Below, piece by piece: positions 1,405 to 10,156 of a stretch of DNA of 34,533 bases. Each line of letters opens with the position of its first letter. Position 1 is the first letter of the stretch. The notes beneath the pieces were generated by a model, which worked only from the letters and a program-made list of their open reading frames with translations, searched no databases and was not told the DNA's origin. The DNA is from Desulfobacteraceae bacterium (GTDB taxonomy: Bacteria; Desulfobacterota; Desulfobacteria; Desulfobacterales; Desulfosalsimonadaceae). Location of the stretch: the NCBI GenBank assembly GCA_027858815.1, contig JAQIBZ010000283.1, positions 1 through 34,533 on the forward strand, given 5' to 3'. The position numbers and the translations under genes are program-made.

Positions 1405-1465
1405 TTATAACGTGCTTTTCAGCGGCCGCGGCTTTTTGCGGTCCGCTGCAAAAGGCTTGTTATGT
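1405..1465 (-). other. attC site of the five-gene cassette (61 bp)
   Basis: The plus-strand boxes are TTATAAC (1405-1411) and GTTATGT (1459-1465). The stem CAGCGGCCGCGG / CGGTCCGCTG encloses CTTTTTG. The R'' box (ACATAAC on the coding strand) is the perfect complement of the R' box at 5700-5706. This pairs it with that site across 4.3 kb and shows that everything between them is one cassette. The site is closely similar in sequence and length to the attC at 5700-5760. Confidence 0.92.
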
Positions 1466-1483
1466 ATTTGGTAGTTGGTAAAT

Positions 1484-2800
1484 TTAATTAAGGATAGTCA
1501 AAATATTTCCTTTTGTATTCTTTTTATGAGGCATATTTTCAAAATATTTTTTAATAATTCTTAACTGTGTGTGAGTATATTCAGGATGTACAACAGAAAT
1601 ATCTCGGAAATAATTTTTACACCCTTCTTCTTTGTACAACATGTTTTTATTTTTGTATTTCGAAAATATTTTCGTACCTCTTAGTGGAAAAATAATACTG
1701 CATTCTATAGAATTAGGTTGGCATTTCAATAATAGATCTTCTGTTATAAGCAAATCATTTGAATCCTCAAAATATAAACCTGAAATAAGAAAGGCATTTG
1801 TTGCAACACCTATTTCATTACAAATTTCAAATGCTTTGACAATTTCATTATTAGTATTTTTTCTGTTTAAAAATAAGTTTCTTTTTTCTTCATTACCAAT
1901 TTCTATGCCTATGCTTACCCATCGCCACCCAACATTTTTTAGCTTTTTTAGCAAATCAATATTCTTATTGTTTATGTGCTCAGGTCTTGATAAAAATCCA
2001 AAAGTTAAGTTTTCTATTCTACCCTTCATGCGTTGAACAAACTCTAAACAGTAATCTGTATTATATAGAAAATTTTCATCAGAAAAAAACAATATGTCAA
2101 AGTCATATGTTTTATTTAAATGTTCAATTTCTTGAACTAATTTACCTATATTTCTTGATCTTATGCCGTATTTTAATTTTTGATTTAAAATTCCATTAGA
2201 ACAATAGTTACAATTAAAAGCGCAGCCTCTTGTTGACCAAGTAAAAATAATTTTCTTCAAATTATGATTATTTTTACGGATAGATATAAACGTTTCAGAG
2301 TGGTAACAAGTATAATCTGTAATATTAAAATCGTCTAAATTATAAACTTTAGAAATACCATTATTAATTATTTTGTTTTGATTTTTAAACCAAATACCTT
2401 GTATCTCTTTTGGCTGAATTCCATTTAGCAAGTCAAGAAGAGAATATTCACCATCTCCAACACAAACAAAATCAACAAAATTTTGCTTTAAGATAATTTC
2501 TGGGACTAAAGATGCAAATGGTCCTCCAAAAATAATTTTAGTGTTTGATTCTGCTTTAACTTCTTTTGCAATAGATAAAGCAGAATCAAGGTGCATTTCT
2601 GTAACTGAAAATCCAATATATTCAAACCCCTCTGAACAAATTTGGGAAATAATTCGGCTATAAGAACACTTATGTGTTTCATATATTATTAATTCATATC
2701 CGTGCTTTTTCAGGTAAGTATATAAACTCGCCAAGCCAACACTAATTTGACTATACTCAAAAGGTGAATCATTAAAATAAATAATTGCTATATCACCCAT
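1484..2800 (-). CDS. B12-binding-domain radical SAM protein
   Basis: The protein has 438 residues. The N-terminal ~130 residues form a Rossmann-like cobalamin-binding domain ('GFSVTEMHLDSA', 'IIFGGPFASLVPE', 'VCVGDGEYSLLDLL'). The classical DxHxxG cobalamin-ligand motif is absent, as in many members of this class. The radical SAM core follows, with the cluster motif 'CAFNCNYC' (Cys193, Cys197, Cys200), then 'FFSDENFLYN' and 'WVSIGIEIGNEEKR' typical of the barrel. Such enzymes methylate or rearrange unactivated carbons in natural products, lipids and cofactors. It is the last gene of the five-gene cassette and overlaps the GT2 gene by 8 bp. The substrate is unknown; the neighbours suggest a glycan or lipid-linked product. 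Confidence 0.9.
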   Translation of the reverse strand: MGDIAIIYFNDSPFEYSQISVGLASLYTYLKKHGYELIIYETHKCSYSRIISQICSEGFEYIGFSVTEMHLDSALSIAKEVKAESNTKIIFGGPFASLVPEIILKQNFVDFVCVGDGEYSLLDLLNGIQPKEIQGIWFKNQNKIINNGISKVYNLDDFNITDYTCYHSETFISIRKNNHNLKKIIFTWSTRGCAFNCNYCSNGILNQKLKYGIRSRNIGKLVQEIEHLNKTYDFDILFFSDENFLYNTDYCLEFVQRMKGRIENLTFGFLSRPEHINNKNIDLLKKLKNVGWRWVSIGIEIGNEEKRNLFLNRKNTNNEIVKAFEICNEIGVATNAFLISGLYFEDSNDLLITEDLLLKCQPNSIECSIIFPLRGTKIFSKYKNKNMLYKEEGCKNYFRDISVVHPEYTHTQLRIIKKYFENMPHKKNTKGNILTILN

Positions 2801-3446
2801 TAATATTATCCAGATTTATAATATATTCTAATAATTCAAATGCCATATCTGAATATTCAGCAATCCGTTTGGGTTTGTCATTTAGTTCTCCAATTTCGAC
2901 CTGTGAAATTTTGCCAGAAATATTATGCCCCTCTATAGCCATAGCCACATCAAATGCCCAATTATTTGGTAACTTAGAATAATTGAATAAATCTTTTTTA
3001 AACATATAGGTCCCCGATAACGGCATTTTAATATAAGATAATTCTGGAAGCTTTAGCTTAATTGCAGGTTTAGCAACTAAATTTCCGACAGGAAATTCAT
3101 CATAATTTGATTGATATATACCATTAACAAACACAACATTGTCACCTATAAATGAAATCAATGTTTCAATCCATTCCAGTTTGGGATTTATAATGTCACC
3201 ATCTATTTTTATAACCAAATCATTTGTGGTAGCTAATATGCCAGCTTTCATTGCATATCCTAAACCTTGTTCTTTGCACTTGACAACTTTTGCACCACAC
3301 TTTTTTGATACCTCAAACGTGTTATCAATTGAATTATTATCAACAACTATAATTTCGGTAACATACCCTGATTGATTAATTTCATTGATTATTTTTTCAA
3401 TTGTAGCTTCTATGTTAAGCCCAGGAATAACTACTGATAACTTCAT
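2793..3446 (-). CDS. Family 2 (GT-A) glycosyltransferase
   Basis: This 217-residue protein is a compact GT-A domain. It opens with 'LSVVIPGLN', then 'EIIVVDNNSIDNT' (nucleotide-sugar binding), 'GLGYAMKAGI' and the metal-binding DxD as 'IDGD' (82-84). No transmembrane helices are present, so it is probably a soluble or peripheral transferase. It resembles polyprenyl-phosphate- and glucosyl-phosphoglycerate-type enzymes more than processive synthases, but donor and acceptor cannot be predicted. Its start overlaps the acyltransferase gene by 32 bp and its end overlaps the radical SAM gene by 8 bp. This indicates a single transcript with coupled translation. Confidence 0.9.
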   Translation of the reverse strand: MKLSVVIPGLNIEATIEKIINEINQSGYVTEIIVVDNNSIDNTFEVSKKCGAKVVKCKEQGLGYAMKAGILATTNDLVIKIDGDIINPKLEWIETLISFIGDNVVFVNGIYQSNYDEFPVGNLVAKPAIKLKLPELSYIKMPLSGTYMFKKDLFNYSKLPNNWAFDVAMAIEGHNISGKISQVEIGELNDKPKRIAEYSDMAFELLEYIINLDNING

Positions 3447-4101
3447 TTATATTTTCAATCCTTTGTTTATTGAAATTTGATACTCCTTCAATATACGACT
3501 TTGGTGCTCGTCCATTCTTTTGAGCAGGATTCCCTGAGTATGCAATATTGGCTTCGGTATTTTTTGTAAGAACTGAACCTGCTGCAATATAACAACCTTC
3601 TGCAACTTTTATCCCCCCAATAATTAATGCCCTCCTACCGACAAATACATTTTTGCAAATTTCAGGTGATTTTTCTATTTCAGAAACAGTAACATCCTTA
3701 AATTTATGCAATAAATCACCTTGAGCTATAGAGTTTTCTCCAATTATGCTATTATTGCAGATAAAACCAGATATTGTGCAAAATTCACCTATTTTTACGT
3801 TGTCATAAACTCTTGCACCATATTCGATTACACTATATTTACCCACCAGCGTTTTCTCACCTATGTATGAGTGATAATCAAATCTACAATTATTATCGAT
3901 TTTTGCACCCAAACAAATAACACTGTTACCCATCACGATCGAATTATCACCTATTTCAGTATAATGATCTTTAACTTCATTTTGTACAGAAGTAGAAAAT
4001 TGAAATCCAGGAAAACCTATAATACAATTAGGCCCAATAAATACATTCTTTCCAATTCTAACATTTTTTGACAATGTAGCGGTAGGGTGTTTGAATTCCA
4101 T
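3415..4101 (-). CDS. Left-handed beta-helix (hexapeptide-repeat) acyltransferase
   Basis: This 228-residue protein shows clear imperfect hexapeptide repeats ([LIV]-G-x-x-x-x) over most of its length: 'IGKNVFIGPNCIIG', 'IGDNSIVMGNSVICLGAKI', 'IGEKTLVGKYSVIEYGARVYDNVKIG', then 'VFVGRRALIIGGIKVAEGCYIAAGSVLT' and a terminal 'SGNPAQKNG' like that of sugar O/N-acetyltransferases. Proteins of this fold transfer acetyl or longer acyl groups from CoA or ACP to sugars or amino sugars. It overlaps the hydrolase stop as TAATG, giving strict translational coupling, and the GT2 gene starts inside it. Together with GT2 this supports an acylated glycan as product (inference). Confidence 0.9.
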   Translation of the reverse strand: MEFKHPTATLSKNVRIGKNVFIGPNCIIGFPGFQFSTSVQNEVKDHYTEIGDNSIVMGNSVICLGAKIDNNCRFDYHSYIGEKTLVGKYSVIEYGARVYDNVKIGEFCTISGFICNNSIIGENSIAQGDLLHKFKDVTVSEIEKSPEICKNVFVGRRALIIGGIKVAEGCYIAAGSVLTKNTEANIAYSGNPAQKNGRAPKSYIEGVSNFNKQRIENINEVISSYSWA

Positions 4102-4856
4102 TACAAATACCTTTTTATAAAATCACACGAAGTTGTAATAACTTCATCAGAATCTTCTTCAAGGCCGTGTGATGAATTTTTCAACCCAATAAGTTTCAAA
4201 TTTTTTGAAAGAGAATTGTTAACAAATTTTTCTGAGTCTTCGATAGATACAATTTCATCTTTTTCACCGTGAAAAATTATTGCAGGGGTATTACATTCCC
4301 ATCTGTAATTCAAAGGTTTATAATAATAAAACTCTATTGCCATTAAAGGATTCAAAACAAAGTTTTCTCCAATCACTATTTTATTATTTACACTTAATAG
4401 ATTATCAATTCCGTTAGAAGGAAAAAAAGATTTTGACCATTCGGAAATTGTCGAAGTGAATGTAGAGCCATAATCAATTACAGGATTTAACATTATCGCA
4501 CTGTTAAACGATAATTTTTTTTCTTGCATTAGCAAAAGGAGAATACTGGACCCAAAACTAGCAGTAATTATTGACACCCTATCATATTTCGCAAATAAAA
4601 AATTGATAACAGCATATAAATCTGCAATCATTCCTGGCAACGTAATTAATTCTGATTTTATGTCCGATTCACCATGCCCCCTAAAGTCAAATCTAAAAGT
4701 AGACAACCCCTTTTTATTAAGTTCCTCTGCAAAGTCATTATAAAACCCCCCCTCTTCTTTTGACGAAGTTATGCCATGACAAAGTAATACAACATCCGAT
4801 TTGCTTTCCACATTTTCCAAGAATTTAATATCATGATTGTCTATTGTTTTAATCAA
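4101..4856 (-). CDS. Alpha/beta hydrolase (serine hydrolase, esterase or thioesterase type)
   Basis: This 251-residue protein covers a complete small alpha/beta-hydrolase fold. The oxyanion-hole motif is 'CHGITSSKEE' (~26-35) and 'FDFRGHGES' lies at 56-64. The nucleophile elbow is 'ITASFGSS' with Ser100; the usual first glycine of GxSxG is a threonine. The acid is Asp200 in 'HGEKDEIV' and the base is His230 in 'NSSHGLEE', so the triad is complete. No signal peptide is seen, so the enzyme is cytosolic. In this cassette it sits 2 bp after the membrane protein and overlaps the acyltransferase. It might remove or transfer an acyl group made by its neighbours, or release a thioester-bound product. 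Confidence 0.9.
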   Translation of the reverse strand: MIKTIDNHDIKFLENVESKSDVVLLCHGITSSKEEGGFYNDFAEELNKKGLSTFRFDFRGHGESDIKSELITLPGMIADLYAVINFLFAKYDRVSIITASFGSSILLLLMQEKKLSFNSAIMLNPVIDYGSTFTSTISEWSKSFFPSNGIDNLLSVNNKIVIGENFVLNPLMAIEFYYYKPLNYRWECNTPAIIFHGEKDEIVSIEDSEKFVNNSLSKNLKLIGLKNSSHGLEEDSDEVITTSCDFIKRYL

Positions 4857-4858
4857 AA

Positions 4859-5641
4859 TTACCTCCTTTTAACTGCTTTCAAATCAACTATTATAATGTT
4901 TGAAACCTCGTTGCCTGTCATATTGCACTTAACTACTCCAAAAAAATCATTGTTTAAAAGATTATTCAAAAAACCTCTTTTCTTTTTAAACGATTTATTT
5001 AGCTCTTTAAAGCTTTGACTTGATTCAAAAAGCATAGATGCTGCTAAAACACCATGAGAACCACAGCCCGCCAATATTATCACTTTTTTGATAGTAGAGT
5101 AAGGATTGGTATGTCTTACAATTAAACCATAATCAATGTGGTCTAAAGTTGATTTAGAATATGCTTTTCCAAAAAACATTAAACTATCATTTTCATCAAA
5201 ATATATTTCTTTAGTAATATTTTCTAACATCGCTTTAGTACATGGGTTATGAAGCGGACCTCCAACTGAAACGATATATTCGTTAAAAATAGCTAGATAT
5301 TGTTTTGTTGCGTAATAATGCTTAATAATGGAATTGTCATACAAATTTCGTAATGATTGCATAATAGTTGCTGCAGCTGTTGCATCCGGCCCAGCTAATA
5401 GTGCAATATCATTTTGATCATTTTGTTCGATAGAACCACTAACGATATACATGTTACTGTTGTTTCTAAATGTGTATAATTTTCTTAGTCGATATCTAGA
5501 AGTAATCAAATATGTCAAGGTATTGGCAGTTGTCTTTACAACAATCTGCATACTCAAGACTATAAGTGAGGCCAATATACTTATAAAAAGGGGGATATAA
5601 TTTTTTGATATAATGGAAAACAAATTAATTATAAAATCCAT
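4859..5641 (-). CDS. Membrane-anchored protein of unknown function, first gene of the five-gene cassette
   Basis: The 260-residue protein has an N-terminal membrane helix (about 13-38) and then a soluble domain of ~220 residues I cannot name. That domain alternates predicted strands and helices and has two glycine-rich landmarks, 'VSVGGPLHNPCTKAML' and 'VIILAGCGSHGVLAASML'. Between them lies 'DYGLIVRHTNPYS'. This arrangement looks like a Rossmann-type ligand-binding domain, and I have a vague sense of similar single-helix anchored proteins, but no family name is safe. The C terminus is very basic. Its start is the first good start in the cassette, with AAAGG upstream. It could be the membrane anchor or sensor of the system encoded by the next four genes. 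Confidence 0.8.
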   Translation of the reverse strand: MDFIINLFSIISKNYIPLFISILASLIVLSMQIVVKTTANTLTYLITSRYRLRKLYTFRNNSNMYIVSGSIEQNDQNDIALLAGPDATAAATIMQSLRNLYDNSIIKHYYATKQYLAIFNEYIVSVGGPLHNPCTKAMLENITKEIYFDENDSLMFFGKAYSKSTLDHIDYGLIVRHTNPYSTIKKVIILAGCGSHGVLAASMLFESSQSFKELNKSFKKKRGFLNNLLNNDFFGVVKCNMTGNEVSNIIIVDLKAVKRR

Positions 5642-5699
5642 TTTTTATTTAACCTTTAATTTTTTTCATATGTTTATCTTATTGAAATAAAGTTGAATT

Positions 5700-5760
5700 A
5701 CATAACGTGATTTTCAGCAGCCGCTGCTTTTTGCGGTCTGCTGGAAAATGTTTGTTAGTT
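5700..5760 (-). other. attC site of the lspA cassette (61 bp), partly translated
   Basis: The plus-strand boxes are ACATAAC (5700-5706) and GTTAGTT (5754-5760). The stem CAGCAGCCGC / GCGGTCTGCTG encloses TGCTTTTT. R'' complements the R' at 6265-6271 exactly. The lspA frame does not stop before the site: its last ~15 codons and the stop at 5714 are inside it. Confidence 0.92.
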
Positions 5761-6232
5761 TCTTACCCCATTTTGAGGTGAATATAATTAACCCAATTGC
5801 CCCCACAGTTATAGCTATGTCGGCTACATTAAAAATGCCAGTTCGCAATGGACCAATACCAATTAGCATAAAATCGACTACCAAACCGTCATTAAAGGCT
5901 CTATCGTAGAGATTTCCAAAACCTCCACCGACGATAAGCAACCCAAGGATAAGATTTATCTTTGACATTGGTTTTATGGCAATATAAATAAGCCCGCCAA
6001 ACAATATTATCCCTACGGCAACTGTGAAGATATAAAACCTTAGGTCGCCGGGAAGAGTCCCTCCCAGACCTAACATAGCGCCACTATTTTCAACATAGAT
6101 AAATTTGAAAAATCCACCAAAATATGAAATTGGGTTATTGCCTTTTAAGCTATCTATGGCCTGAATCTTGGTTAGGCGGTCACACCCAACAAGCAATAAT
6201 AGAGTGGAAAATATTACGAAATATTTTTTCAT
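5714..6232 (-). CDS. lspA: Lipoprotein signal peptidase (signal peptidase II) on an integron cassette
   Basis: This 172-residue membrane protein is the aspartic protease that cleaves the signal peptide from diacylated prolipoproteins in the inner membrane. Family motifs are present: N-terminal 'GCDRLTK', 'VENSGAMLG', the first catalytic region 'GNLYDRAFNDGLVVDF' and the second 'FNVADIAI', with four hydrophobic segments spaced as usual. The length is normal for the family. The final ~15 residues (after 'SKWGK') are encoded by the attC site and have no conservation value. A chromosomal lspA presumably exists elsewhere, so this copy is accessory. Resistance to LspA-targeting antibiotics such as globomycin is one possible benefit (inference). 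Confidence 0.95.
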   Translation of the reverse strand: MKKYFVIFSTLLLLVGCDRLTKIQAIDSLKGNNPISYFGGFFKFIYVENSGAMLGLGGTLPGDLRFYIFTVAVGIILFGGLIYIAIKPMSKINLILGLLIVGGGFGNLYDRAFNDGLVVDFMLIGIGPLRTGIFNVADIAITVGAIGLIIFTSKWGKKLTNIFQQTAKSSGC

Positions 6233-6321: not shown

Positions 6322-7146
6322 CTATAAGAGCTTATTAAAGTCAAGTTCATAACCAGCATCTTTCATTTCTTTAGCAATATCTACTTGCCAGTCTTTATCA
6401 GAAATATAAACCATGCCGCTAATATCATTTGGCAACTCTATGGCACCAGCCACCAATGGAACTACATTTTCTCTGCCAAGCTTACCTATCAAATAACCGT
6501 GCTCGAAAACAACATTTTGTCTCGCACGAGCTTTAAGCTCACCTTTATCGGCGCTTTCTTTGACATTTCCAAGATCATCTGGCGTATAGAGAACTATCGC
6601 AAACCCTACATTCGAATATTTTTCTATTTTTTCGATGATTGTCCGCCCACGACTAGCTTGTTCGTGCAATATAACCGCTTTAAATCCAAGCTTTTCTATA
6701 AAACGTGCTGTACGTTCTTTGGCCTCACCATCATGCCCATGAACAATAAATACTTGGGTTAAATCTTTATCCTCGTTCTCACTCGCTAAGTCAGAAGACT
6801 CCTTTCCAGATTCATTTTCTGGATCTGGAAAGTCATATTCATCGTTTTCTACATCTAAGGTAAGCGAGTCAATGTATGAAATCATTGTTTCACCATCCTC
6901 CCGCCAGAACCTTTGAGCGTCGGATTCTCCTCGATGAACAACATACGCGATATGAGAAAGCTTGCTGTTGAGTGTGGAGACTTCCGCTGGTAAGTTCTCG
7001 TTTAAAAACTGGGTGAACTTGCGCCGCCAAGTATTAAATCGATCCCTTCCGAATGAACCCCCTCTTTGCTCGTATGCGTTAACAACCTCTCCAAGCAATC
7101 TTTCTCGGAAAGACTCAAGTCCTTCCAACACCTCTTTTTTATTCAT
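6322..7146 (-). CDS. TIR-like nucleotide-binding effector protein (CAP12/Pycsar-TIR type domain), cassette-borne
   Basis: The protein has 274 residues. The C-terminal half (about 131-270) is the TIR-like domain once called a predicted nucleotide-binding domain: 'VFIVHGHDGEAKE' (132-144), 'ILHEQASRGRTIIEKIEKY', 'FAIVLYTPDDLG', 'RARQNVVFEHGYLIGKLGRENV', 'LPNDISGMVYI'. In CBASS and Pycsar immunity this domain degrades NAD+ when activated. The N-terminal ~110 residues are charged and helical with no cyclic-nucleotide domain I recognise, followed by an acidic linker ('ENESGKESSDLASENEDKD'). No nucleotide cyclase is encoded beside it, so it is either a stand-alone effector with its own sensor or not immune at all. 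A single-gene defence cassette is the likely reading. Confidence 0.88.
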   Translation of the reverse strand: MNKKEVLEGLESFRERLLGEVVNAYEQRGGSFGRDRFNTWRRKFTQFLNENLPAEVSTLNSKLSHIAYVVHRGESDAQRFWREDGETMISYIDSLTLDVENDEYDFPDPENESGKESSDLASENEDKDLTQVFIVHGHDGEAKERTARFIEKLGFKAVILHEQASRGRTIIEKIEKYSNVGFAIVLYTPDDLGNVKESADKGELKARARQNVVFEHGYLIGKLGRENVVPLVAGAIELPNDISGMVYISDKDWQVDIAKEMKDAGYELDFNKLL

Positions 7147-8948: not shown

Positions 8949-9060
8949 GCCCAACAATTATTGGAAGTACTAATCGGCGCTTTATTTTACGCCCAATTTG
9001 CTTACGAAATCTTCATATCACGCCAATTGGGCGTATATTACCCGAAATAAGGGTGATATG
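8949..9060 (-). other. attI region and junction with the first cassette
   Basis: The core GTTGGGC (coding strand of the array; 8949-8955) marks the crossover between attI and the TPR cassette. On the intI side the DNA is rich in symmetry. ACGCCCAATT (8989-8998) is repeated in inverse as AATTGGGCGT (9025-9034). CATATCA (9014-9020) pairs with TGATATG (9054-9060), and ACCC/GGGT nests inside. These are plausible integrase-binding sites. I could not find a convincing outward -35/-10 pair for a cassette promoter here. A TAAAAT on the minus strand at about 8985 lacks a matching -35. Confidence 0.6.
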
Positions 9061-9130: not shown

Positions 9131-9184
9131 ATTTGGCTTTTGGATTATCTTATCATGAAAACTTGTCAATTTAAAGAGGTATTT

Positions 9185-10156
9185 ATGCTCAATTCGCCAA
9201 AACTTCTGGATCAGGTAAGAAATCTCATTCGTTTGAAGCACTATAGCATAAGAACAGAAGGGACTTATGTCAGTTGGATAAAACGCTATATTTATTTCCA
9301 TAACAAACGACACCCAAAGGATATGGGAGAAAATGAAATCCGGCAATTTTTAACCGATCTGGCAGTAAATCGGAAAGTCGCTGCTTCGACCCAAAACCAG
9401 GCTTTTAATGCATTACTGTTTTTATATCGTGAGGTATTGAAACAGGAATTTAATAATTTAGGGGATGTGGTACGTGCGAAAACAACCCGAAAACTGCCGG
9501 TTGTATATACCCAGTCAGAAATTCGCATCATTATAAACCAGCTTGAAGGCCGGAACTGGCTGATGGGCCAGACAATGTATGGTGCAGGATTAAGGGTTAT
9601 GGAATGCGTTCGTCTACGGGTAAAGGACATTGACTTTGGTTACCGACAAATAGTTGTGCGTGACGGAAAAGGCCGTAAGGATCGAATTACCTTACTCCCG
9701 GATATTATGGTTGATAATCTTAAAAGACATCTTGAAAAAGTCAAATCGATTCATGATTTTGACCTAAAAGCGGGTTTCGGAACTGTTTACATGCCCTATG
9801 CACTGGAAAGAAAATATAAACATGCAGATCGAAGTTGGTCATGGCAATGGGTATTTCCTGCGTCAAAACGGTCCATTGATCCACGGAGCAAAATTGAGCG
9901 GAGGCATCATATAAATGAGTCTGTTATTCAGAAGGCCGTCAAAAAAGCGACTCGCAGTGCCGGCATAACAAAAACAGGCAATTGCCATGCCTTGCGCCAT
10001 TCCTTTGCAACCCACCTTCTTGAATCCGGCTATGATATTCGGACCATACAGGAACTGCTGGGGCACAAAGATGTATCCACCACCATGATCTATACCCATG
10101 TGCTCAACCGTGGCGGTCGTGGGGTAAAGAGTCCGGGGGATATGTTATGGAGCTAA
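9185..10156 (+). CDS. intI: Integron integrase (IntI-type tyrosine recombinase)
   Basis: The integrase excises and inserts cassettes at attC and attI. From the ATG at 9185 (AAAGAGGT six bases upstream) it has 323 residues, the normal IntI length. The track's extra 15 N-terminal residues are unlike the family. The N-terminal SAM-like domain carries '[15 protein letters not shown]'. The catalytic set is Arg137 ('[13 protein letters not shown]'), His268 and Arg271 ('[11 protein letters not shown]'), His294 ('[16 protein letters not shown]') and Tyr303. The IntI-specific insert is clear: '[16 protein letters not shown]' and '[15 protein letters not shown]' (about 211-245), absent from XerC/D. All catalytic residues are intact. 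It overlaps lexA by 10 bp, an arrangement I have not seen described, and diverges from the cassettes. Confidence 0.97.

Follow-up and report, generated by a model that had tools for sequence, protein, structure and literature searches.

The window (the whole stretch of DNA analysed, 34,533 nucleotides from a Desulfobacteraceae bacterium) very probably holds a single integron gene cassette that bears a whole operon of five genes. This unit, the fifth cassette of an array on the minus strand, occupies positions 1411..5705 (start at 5705; 4,295 bp) and has matching R' and R'' ends with no attC inside. The original prediction of one integron cassette with a five-gene operon is well supported by the boundary attCs, the matching ends and the lack of an internal attC. 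Taken as a whole, the best explanation of the sequence is an operon-carrying cassette with a role in surface modification, a reading which is moderately favoured.

The cassette starts at the R' box (GTTATGT, 5706-5700) of the attC of the preceding lspA cassette, a site at 5700..5760 on the minus strand that scores 60.8 bits with a covariance model (E 2.1e-15) and has a DNA fold z of -4.3. Its own attC is found at 1405..1465 on the same strand (64.6 bits, E 1.7e-16; DNA fold z -4.0), with ACATAAC as R'' (1465-1459) and GTTATAA as R' (1411-1405). The single-strand folds of both sites lie well below those of shuffled sequences, and both have a bulged base in the long stem. The far R' (GTTATGT) and this R'' (ACATAAC) are exact reverse complements (7/7), as was predicted, and the same holds in the neighbours. 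Complementarity of 7/7 is seen in 40 of 59 adjacent attC pairs, compared with 3.5% of non-adjacent ones (218/6261). As GTTATGT is a frequent R' (7/80), the end match of the five-gene cassette taken alone has a chance of about 9% (about 1 in 11) of arising by coincidence; the remaining weight is borne by how consistently the array as a whole follows the rule and by the missing internal attC.

That no attC would occur between the ends was also part of the prediction, and two scans agree with it. The covariance model, trained on 23 attCs (57-65 nt) that were taken from other genomes of the order and not from the window, gave 36.7 bits for the array site at 6312-6265 and 33.8 bits for that at 302-242; its best match inside 1466-5699 reached only 7.7 bits (E=5.6). 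The model is poor on long attCs, hence a second scanner based on stem and boxes was applied to sites of 45-165 nt. Six of the seven array attCs scored 11.25-15.5 with this scanner (14.0 and 14.5 for the two that bound the cassette), and the eroded leftmost attC scored 8.5. Inside the five-gene cassette, nothing on either strand exceeded 8.5, which is within the background (scores reach 8.75, apart from a single outlier of 11.0 that lies outside the array), thus no internal attC is indicated by the scanner either.

The cassette lies in cis with a complete, full-length integron integrase gene, intI, on the plus strand at 9140..10156 (TIGR02249, 460.7 bits against a cut-off of 265, match at 9203-10144); the first in-frame start may be slightly inside these limits. 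From intI, the array runs leftward on the minus strand up to the end of the contig (C663), which is part of a 4.85-Mb MAG in 663 contigs with a contamination estimate of 6.2%. The R' at the attI end (GTTGGGC, 8949..8955, minus strand) is the start of cassette 1 and the complement of the R'' (GCCCAAC) in the attC at 8149-8022, which is followed on the same strand by attCs at 7271-7168, 6312-6265, 5760-5700, 1465-1405 and 1009-878, and by the poorer leftmost site at about 301-242. R' and R'' are exact complements (7/7) in all of cassettes 1-6: GTTGGGC/GCCCAAC, GTTATCT/AGATAAC, GTTAGCT/AGCTAAC, GTTAGTT/AACTAAC, GTTATGT/ACATAAC and GTTATAA/TTATAAC. No Rfam family reaches threshold within the window.

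Several observations concern the surroundings of the cassette. Adjoining it is cassette 4 (5714-6232, minus strand), which encodes a second-type lipoprotein signal peptidase LspA above the TIGR00077 cut-off. Cassette 3 (6322-7146, minus strand) encodes a TIR-domain protein that matches the candidate defence system PDC-S35 (E 5e-84) and also the CAP12/Pycsar TIR family. Further attC-like sites are seen in the same genome on contigs C472, C383, C361, C376, C422 and C39, and are probably more of the array, broken up by assembly. Of 146 related genomes, 68 have integron integrases above the family cut-off, which makes integrons common in the Desulfobacterales.

The five ORFs are as originally described: all are intact, on the minus strand, and overlapping or abutting, with successive spacings of 2, -1, -32 and -8 bp. 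The first gene, at 4859..5641, encodes a 260 aa protein referred to here as P1, which by hydropathy has one N-terminal TM segment, followed by a domain outside known families; no family could be assigned in Pfam, NCBIfam, PADLOC or PHROGs. The family alignment reveals the motifs GGPxxNxxT and DYGxxxxxxNP, and an AlphaFold2 model of P1 from a two-row alignment has a pLDDT of 35. Gene 2 (4101..4856) has a TTG start after AGGAGG and encodes an alpha/beta hydrolase of 251 aa (PF12146, 78 bits) that is close to esterases (structure matches, E 2e-14). Gene 3 (3415..4101) encodes a hexapeptide-repeat acyltransferase of 228 aa (PF00132, 86 bits), and gene 4 (2793..3446) a GT2/GpgS-like glycosyltransferase of 217 aa (PF00535, 61.6 bits) that matches GpgS structures over residues 3-205 (E 2e-16) and also resembles a dolichol monophosphate mannose synthase over its length. 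Assignment of gene 4 as GpgS itself was rejected, its NF010496 score being 109.3 bits against a cut-off of 262. Gene 5 (1484..2800) encodes a B12-binding radical SAM protein of 438 aa, with PF02310 and PF04055 above cut-off and the cluster motif CxxxCxxC present as CAFNCNYC. In function-level curated families, none of the five genes reaches cut-off, gene 5 included.

The GC content of the five-gene cassette is 30% (29% in its body), whereas the other cassettes have 38-42% and the remainder of the window 44%. The proposed origin in a distant host agrees with this A/T bias and with the fact that the order offers no close relatives; no donor was found. A promoter scan of the cassette gave 39 matches against 26 in shuffles of the AT-rich sequence.

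Searches of genomes, plasmids, phages and viral contigs turned up no copy of the whole operon or of its gene order, and neither an empty site nor an excision product of the cassette was seen; the P1 family is the thread by which relatives can be followed. It is rare, with five clear members across overlapping sets of 146, 390 and 395 genomes, a count that leaves out a match in G448 (E 3e-4). Three of the five, P1 of the window among them, share an operon with a hexapeptide transferase, and each of these operons begins directly behind an attC. In G021, a four-gene cassette of 3,870 bp lies between attCs at 13473-13400 and 9603-9530 of locus L012 (ends 6/7), with the gene order GT4, polysaccharide deacetylase, hexapeptide transferase and P1-like; it is followed by a 2.9-kb cassette (ends 7/7) for a protein with Mrr plus nSTAND1 domains. 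In G683 (locus L142), an operon with overlaps of 31, 10 and 4 bp directly follows an attC at 2048-2140, which itself comes after a truncated integrase fragment and a first cassette. This operon comprises a gene without family, a hydrolase (32.5%, E 2e-28), a hexapeptide transferase (33%, E 1e-14) and a P1-like gene; no 3' attC is recognisable before a transposase-like gene. Near the P1 members in G093 and G075 there is no convincing attC. The P1 searches were blind to integrons, and the association of P1 with attCs is therefore informative, albeit in a small sample. The operon's nearest relatives thus stand behind attCs, and not in a fixed chromosomal context devoid of them.

Wider searches returned little. 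When the genome collection was scanned with the alignment of P1, the G093 contig was the sole match. IMG/VR held no relatives of P1, gene 4 or gene 5, and plasmids and phages none of P1; the DNA of the whole cassette was not found in plasmids, where genes 3-5 had only distant generic relatives, as did gene 4 in phages. From these comparisons, P1 and the hexapeptide transferase appear to be the core that recurs within a family of operon cassettes, while their partner enzymes vary. The operon between attCs, along with related operons behind attCs in two genomes, suggests that integrons can move whole pathways.

IntI recombines the folded bottom strands of attC sites. In the mechanism proposed here, IntI would pair the two folded boundary attCs and excise 5705-1411 as a 4.3-kb circle, which would re-insert at attI or at another attC, such that the five genes move together. 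In one study excision was not consistently limited by cassette length up to 1.5 kb, and length limits were described as not stringent (PMC5371416). As for function, the glycosyltransferase encoded by gene 4 would add a sugar, the hexapeptide enzyme (gene 3) would acylate it, the alpha/beta hydrolase (gene 2) would remove or transfer an acyl group, and the B12-radical SAM enzyme (gene 5) would methylate or rearrange the lipid or sugar; membrane-anchored P1 would tether or control the other enzymes. A role in making or decorating a cell-surface (envelope) glycan or glycolipid is inferred with about evenly balanced confidence because of the enzyme families, the deacetylase and GT4 in the G021 relative, and the Vibrio cassettes reported to modify surface polysaccharide (PMC3856429). 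The complete biosynthetic or envelope-modifying pathway of the original prediction is plausible.

Cassettes of operon size form a minority in this order, but a recurrent one. Across 21 loci, 56 cassettes with matching ends were compared, including first cassettes assessed from attI; their median length is 783 bp, and 43 of the 56 carry one ORF. The statement that typical cassettes carry one ORF therefore holds for most of the set, but operon-sized ones recur. Among clean cases, the five-gene cassette of the window is the second largest and has the most genes. A first cassette of 4.68 kb in G093 (L072:377-5059) bears a complete type III R-M system (mod 666 aa, res 858 aa), and one of 4.16 kb in G005, of the same genus (L067:385-4546), bears four genes: an NsnA-like DUF262 protein, a RiboL-PSP HEPN protein, a hexapeptide transferase and a 294-aa protein without family. 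In the G093 cassette the attI R' and the attC R'' match 7/7, where for the left ends of both first cassettes the 7/7 complement was sought in the first 700 bp, a weaker test. A smaller cassette in G095 (L091:2418-4904, 2.5 kb, ends 7/7) carries genes for a small membrane protein (8xMP-like, below cut-off), a B12-radical SAM protein and a UDG-family protein. L112 (4.4 kb, 7 ORFs) was excluded as a multi-gene example for its possible eroded attCs, and L066 (3.8 kb, transposase-like genes) and L061 (4.2 kb, unmatched ends) are not among the clean large cases. Separately, homologous proteins of 914-918 aa are found amid attCs at L012:6654-9530 (G021) and at L131:2711-5455 in the window's own genome (contig C361); they share 30% over 910 aa, the G021 copy has the Mrr plus nSTAND1 domains, and they are a candidate cassette-borne defence protein.

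A real cassette could also serve a different purpose: an anti-phage or conflict system acting through sugar or lipid chemistry, with P1 as a membrane sensor or effector, is the rival that survives best, though it is judged rather unlikely. In its favour, the TIR protein assigned to candidate system PDC-S35 is encoded in the next-but-one cassette, other large cassettes of the order carry a type III R-M system and an NsnA-like protein, and the G021 relative is followed by the Mrr plus nSTAND1 cassette and has a GT4 that weakly matches 'GT4-conflict'. However, the one PADLOC lead within the operon, PDC-M51A for gene 5, is non-specific, as 7/7 chromosomal B12-radical SAM controls match it too, several of them better, and it was rejected as a sign of defence; the other four proteins have no convincing defence match. 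Very improbable is a fused cassette, in which one-gene cassettes would have lost their internal attCs and no operon was ever captured. Fused cassettes with the upstream attC lost are documented (PMC8876359), but the gene spacings leave no room for attC remnants, and fusion predicts that the final R'' would match the R' before the last gene, where here it matches the far 5' R' in 7/7 positions. Slightest of all is the chance of an assembly or binning artefact joining unrelated DNA between two similar attCs, as the MAG's many contigs and contamination estimate and the 82% identity of the two flanking attCs might allow, but the right-hand R'' is an exact complement of the far R', which is what insertion would produce, and two further assemblies, one of them in just 8 contigs, also have related operons behind attCs.

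An operon-carrying cassette would matter in several respects. Cassettes are regarded as units of a single gene, and how they arise is largely unexplained (PMC5371416); one with an overlapping multi-gene operon would be hard to assemble gene by gene, and would mean that a single recombination event can bring in a pathway. In published surveys an array is accepted only if its attCs are at most 4 kb apart (PMC7370490, PMC9668308), 4 kb being the IntegronFinder default (per PMC5371416). The boundary attCs are 4,234 bp apart, so tools with this limit would cut the array at the five-gene cassette, and operon cassettes of this kind would be split or overlooked wherever a survey clusters attCs within 4 kb. 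A broader proposal, held at even confidence, is that Desulfobacterota integrons move whole surface-modification (or defence) pathways as single cassettes of 3.9-4.3 kb, belonging to an undescribed family with a core of P1 and the hexapeptide transferase, around which glycosyltransferase, hydrolase, deacetylase and radical SAM genes would be exchanged as the family diversifies. Surveys with a 4-kb attC spacing limit would be unable to recover the largest of these cassettes in one piece. The P1 family offers a search handle for further operon cassettes. No description of a five-gene cassette was found in a literature search that was thin on subscription papers and does not establish priority.

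Compared with known systems, gene 4 has full-length similarity to GpgS, but at 217 aa it lacks in alignment the segment around GGGRVTEL. The operon shares with serotype-converting or O-antigen modification sets the pairing of a glycosyltransferase with an acyltransferase in a mobile element, and gene 4 has a weak match to a GtrB-like PHROG; unlike those sets, it has no flippase or Gtr-type set, has in addition a B12-radical SAM protein and P1, and is in an integron instead of a prophage. With fused gene cassettes (PMC8876359) it has in common that one attC mobilises several genes, but here the genes overlap, no attC remnant is seen, and R' and R'' match at the far ends. Cassettes are generally single-gene (PMC8876359) or have one ORF and occasionally more (PMC12409362), and one study already terms those of at least 1.5 kb very large (PMC5371416). 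The cassette shares with those of chromosomal integrons, such as in Vibrio, a 3' attC, complementary R' and R'' and an array adjoining intI, and differs from them in carrying five overlapping or abutting genes in 4.3 kb.
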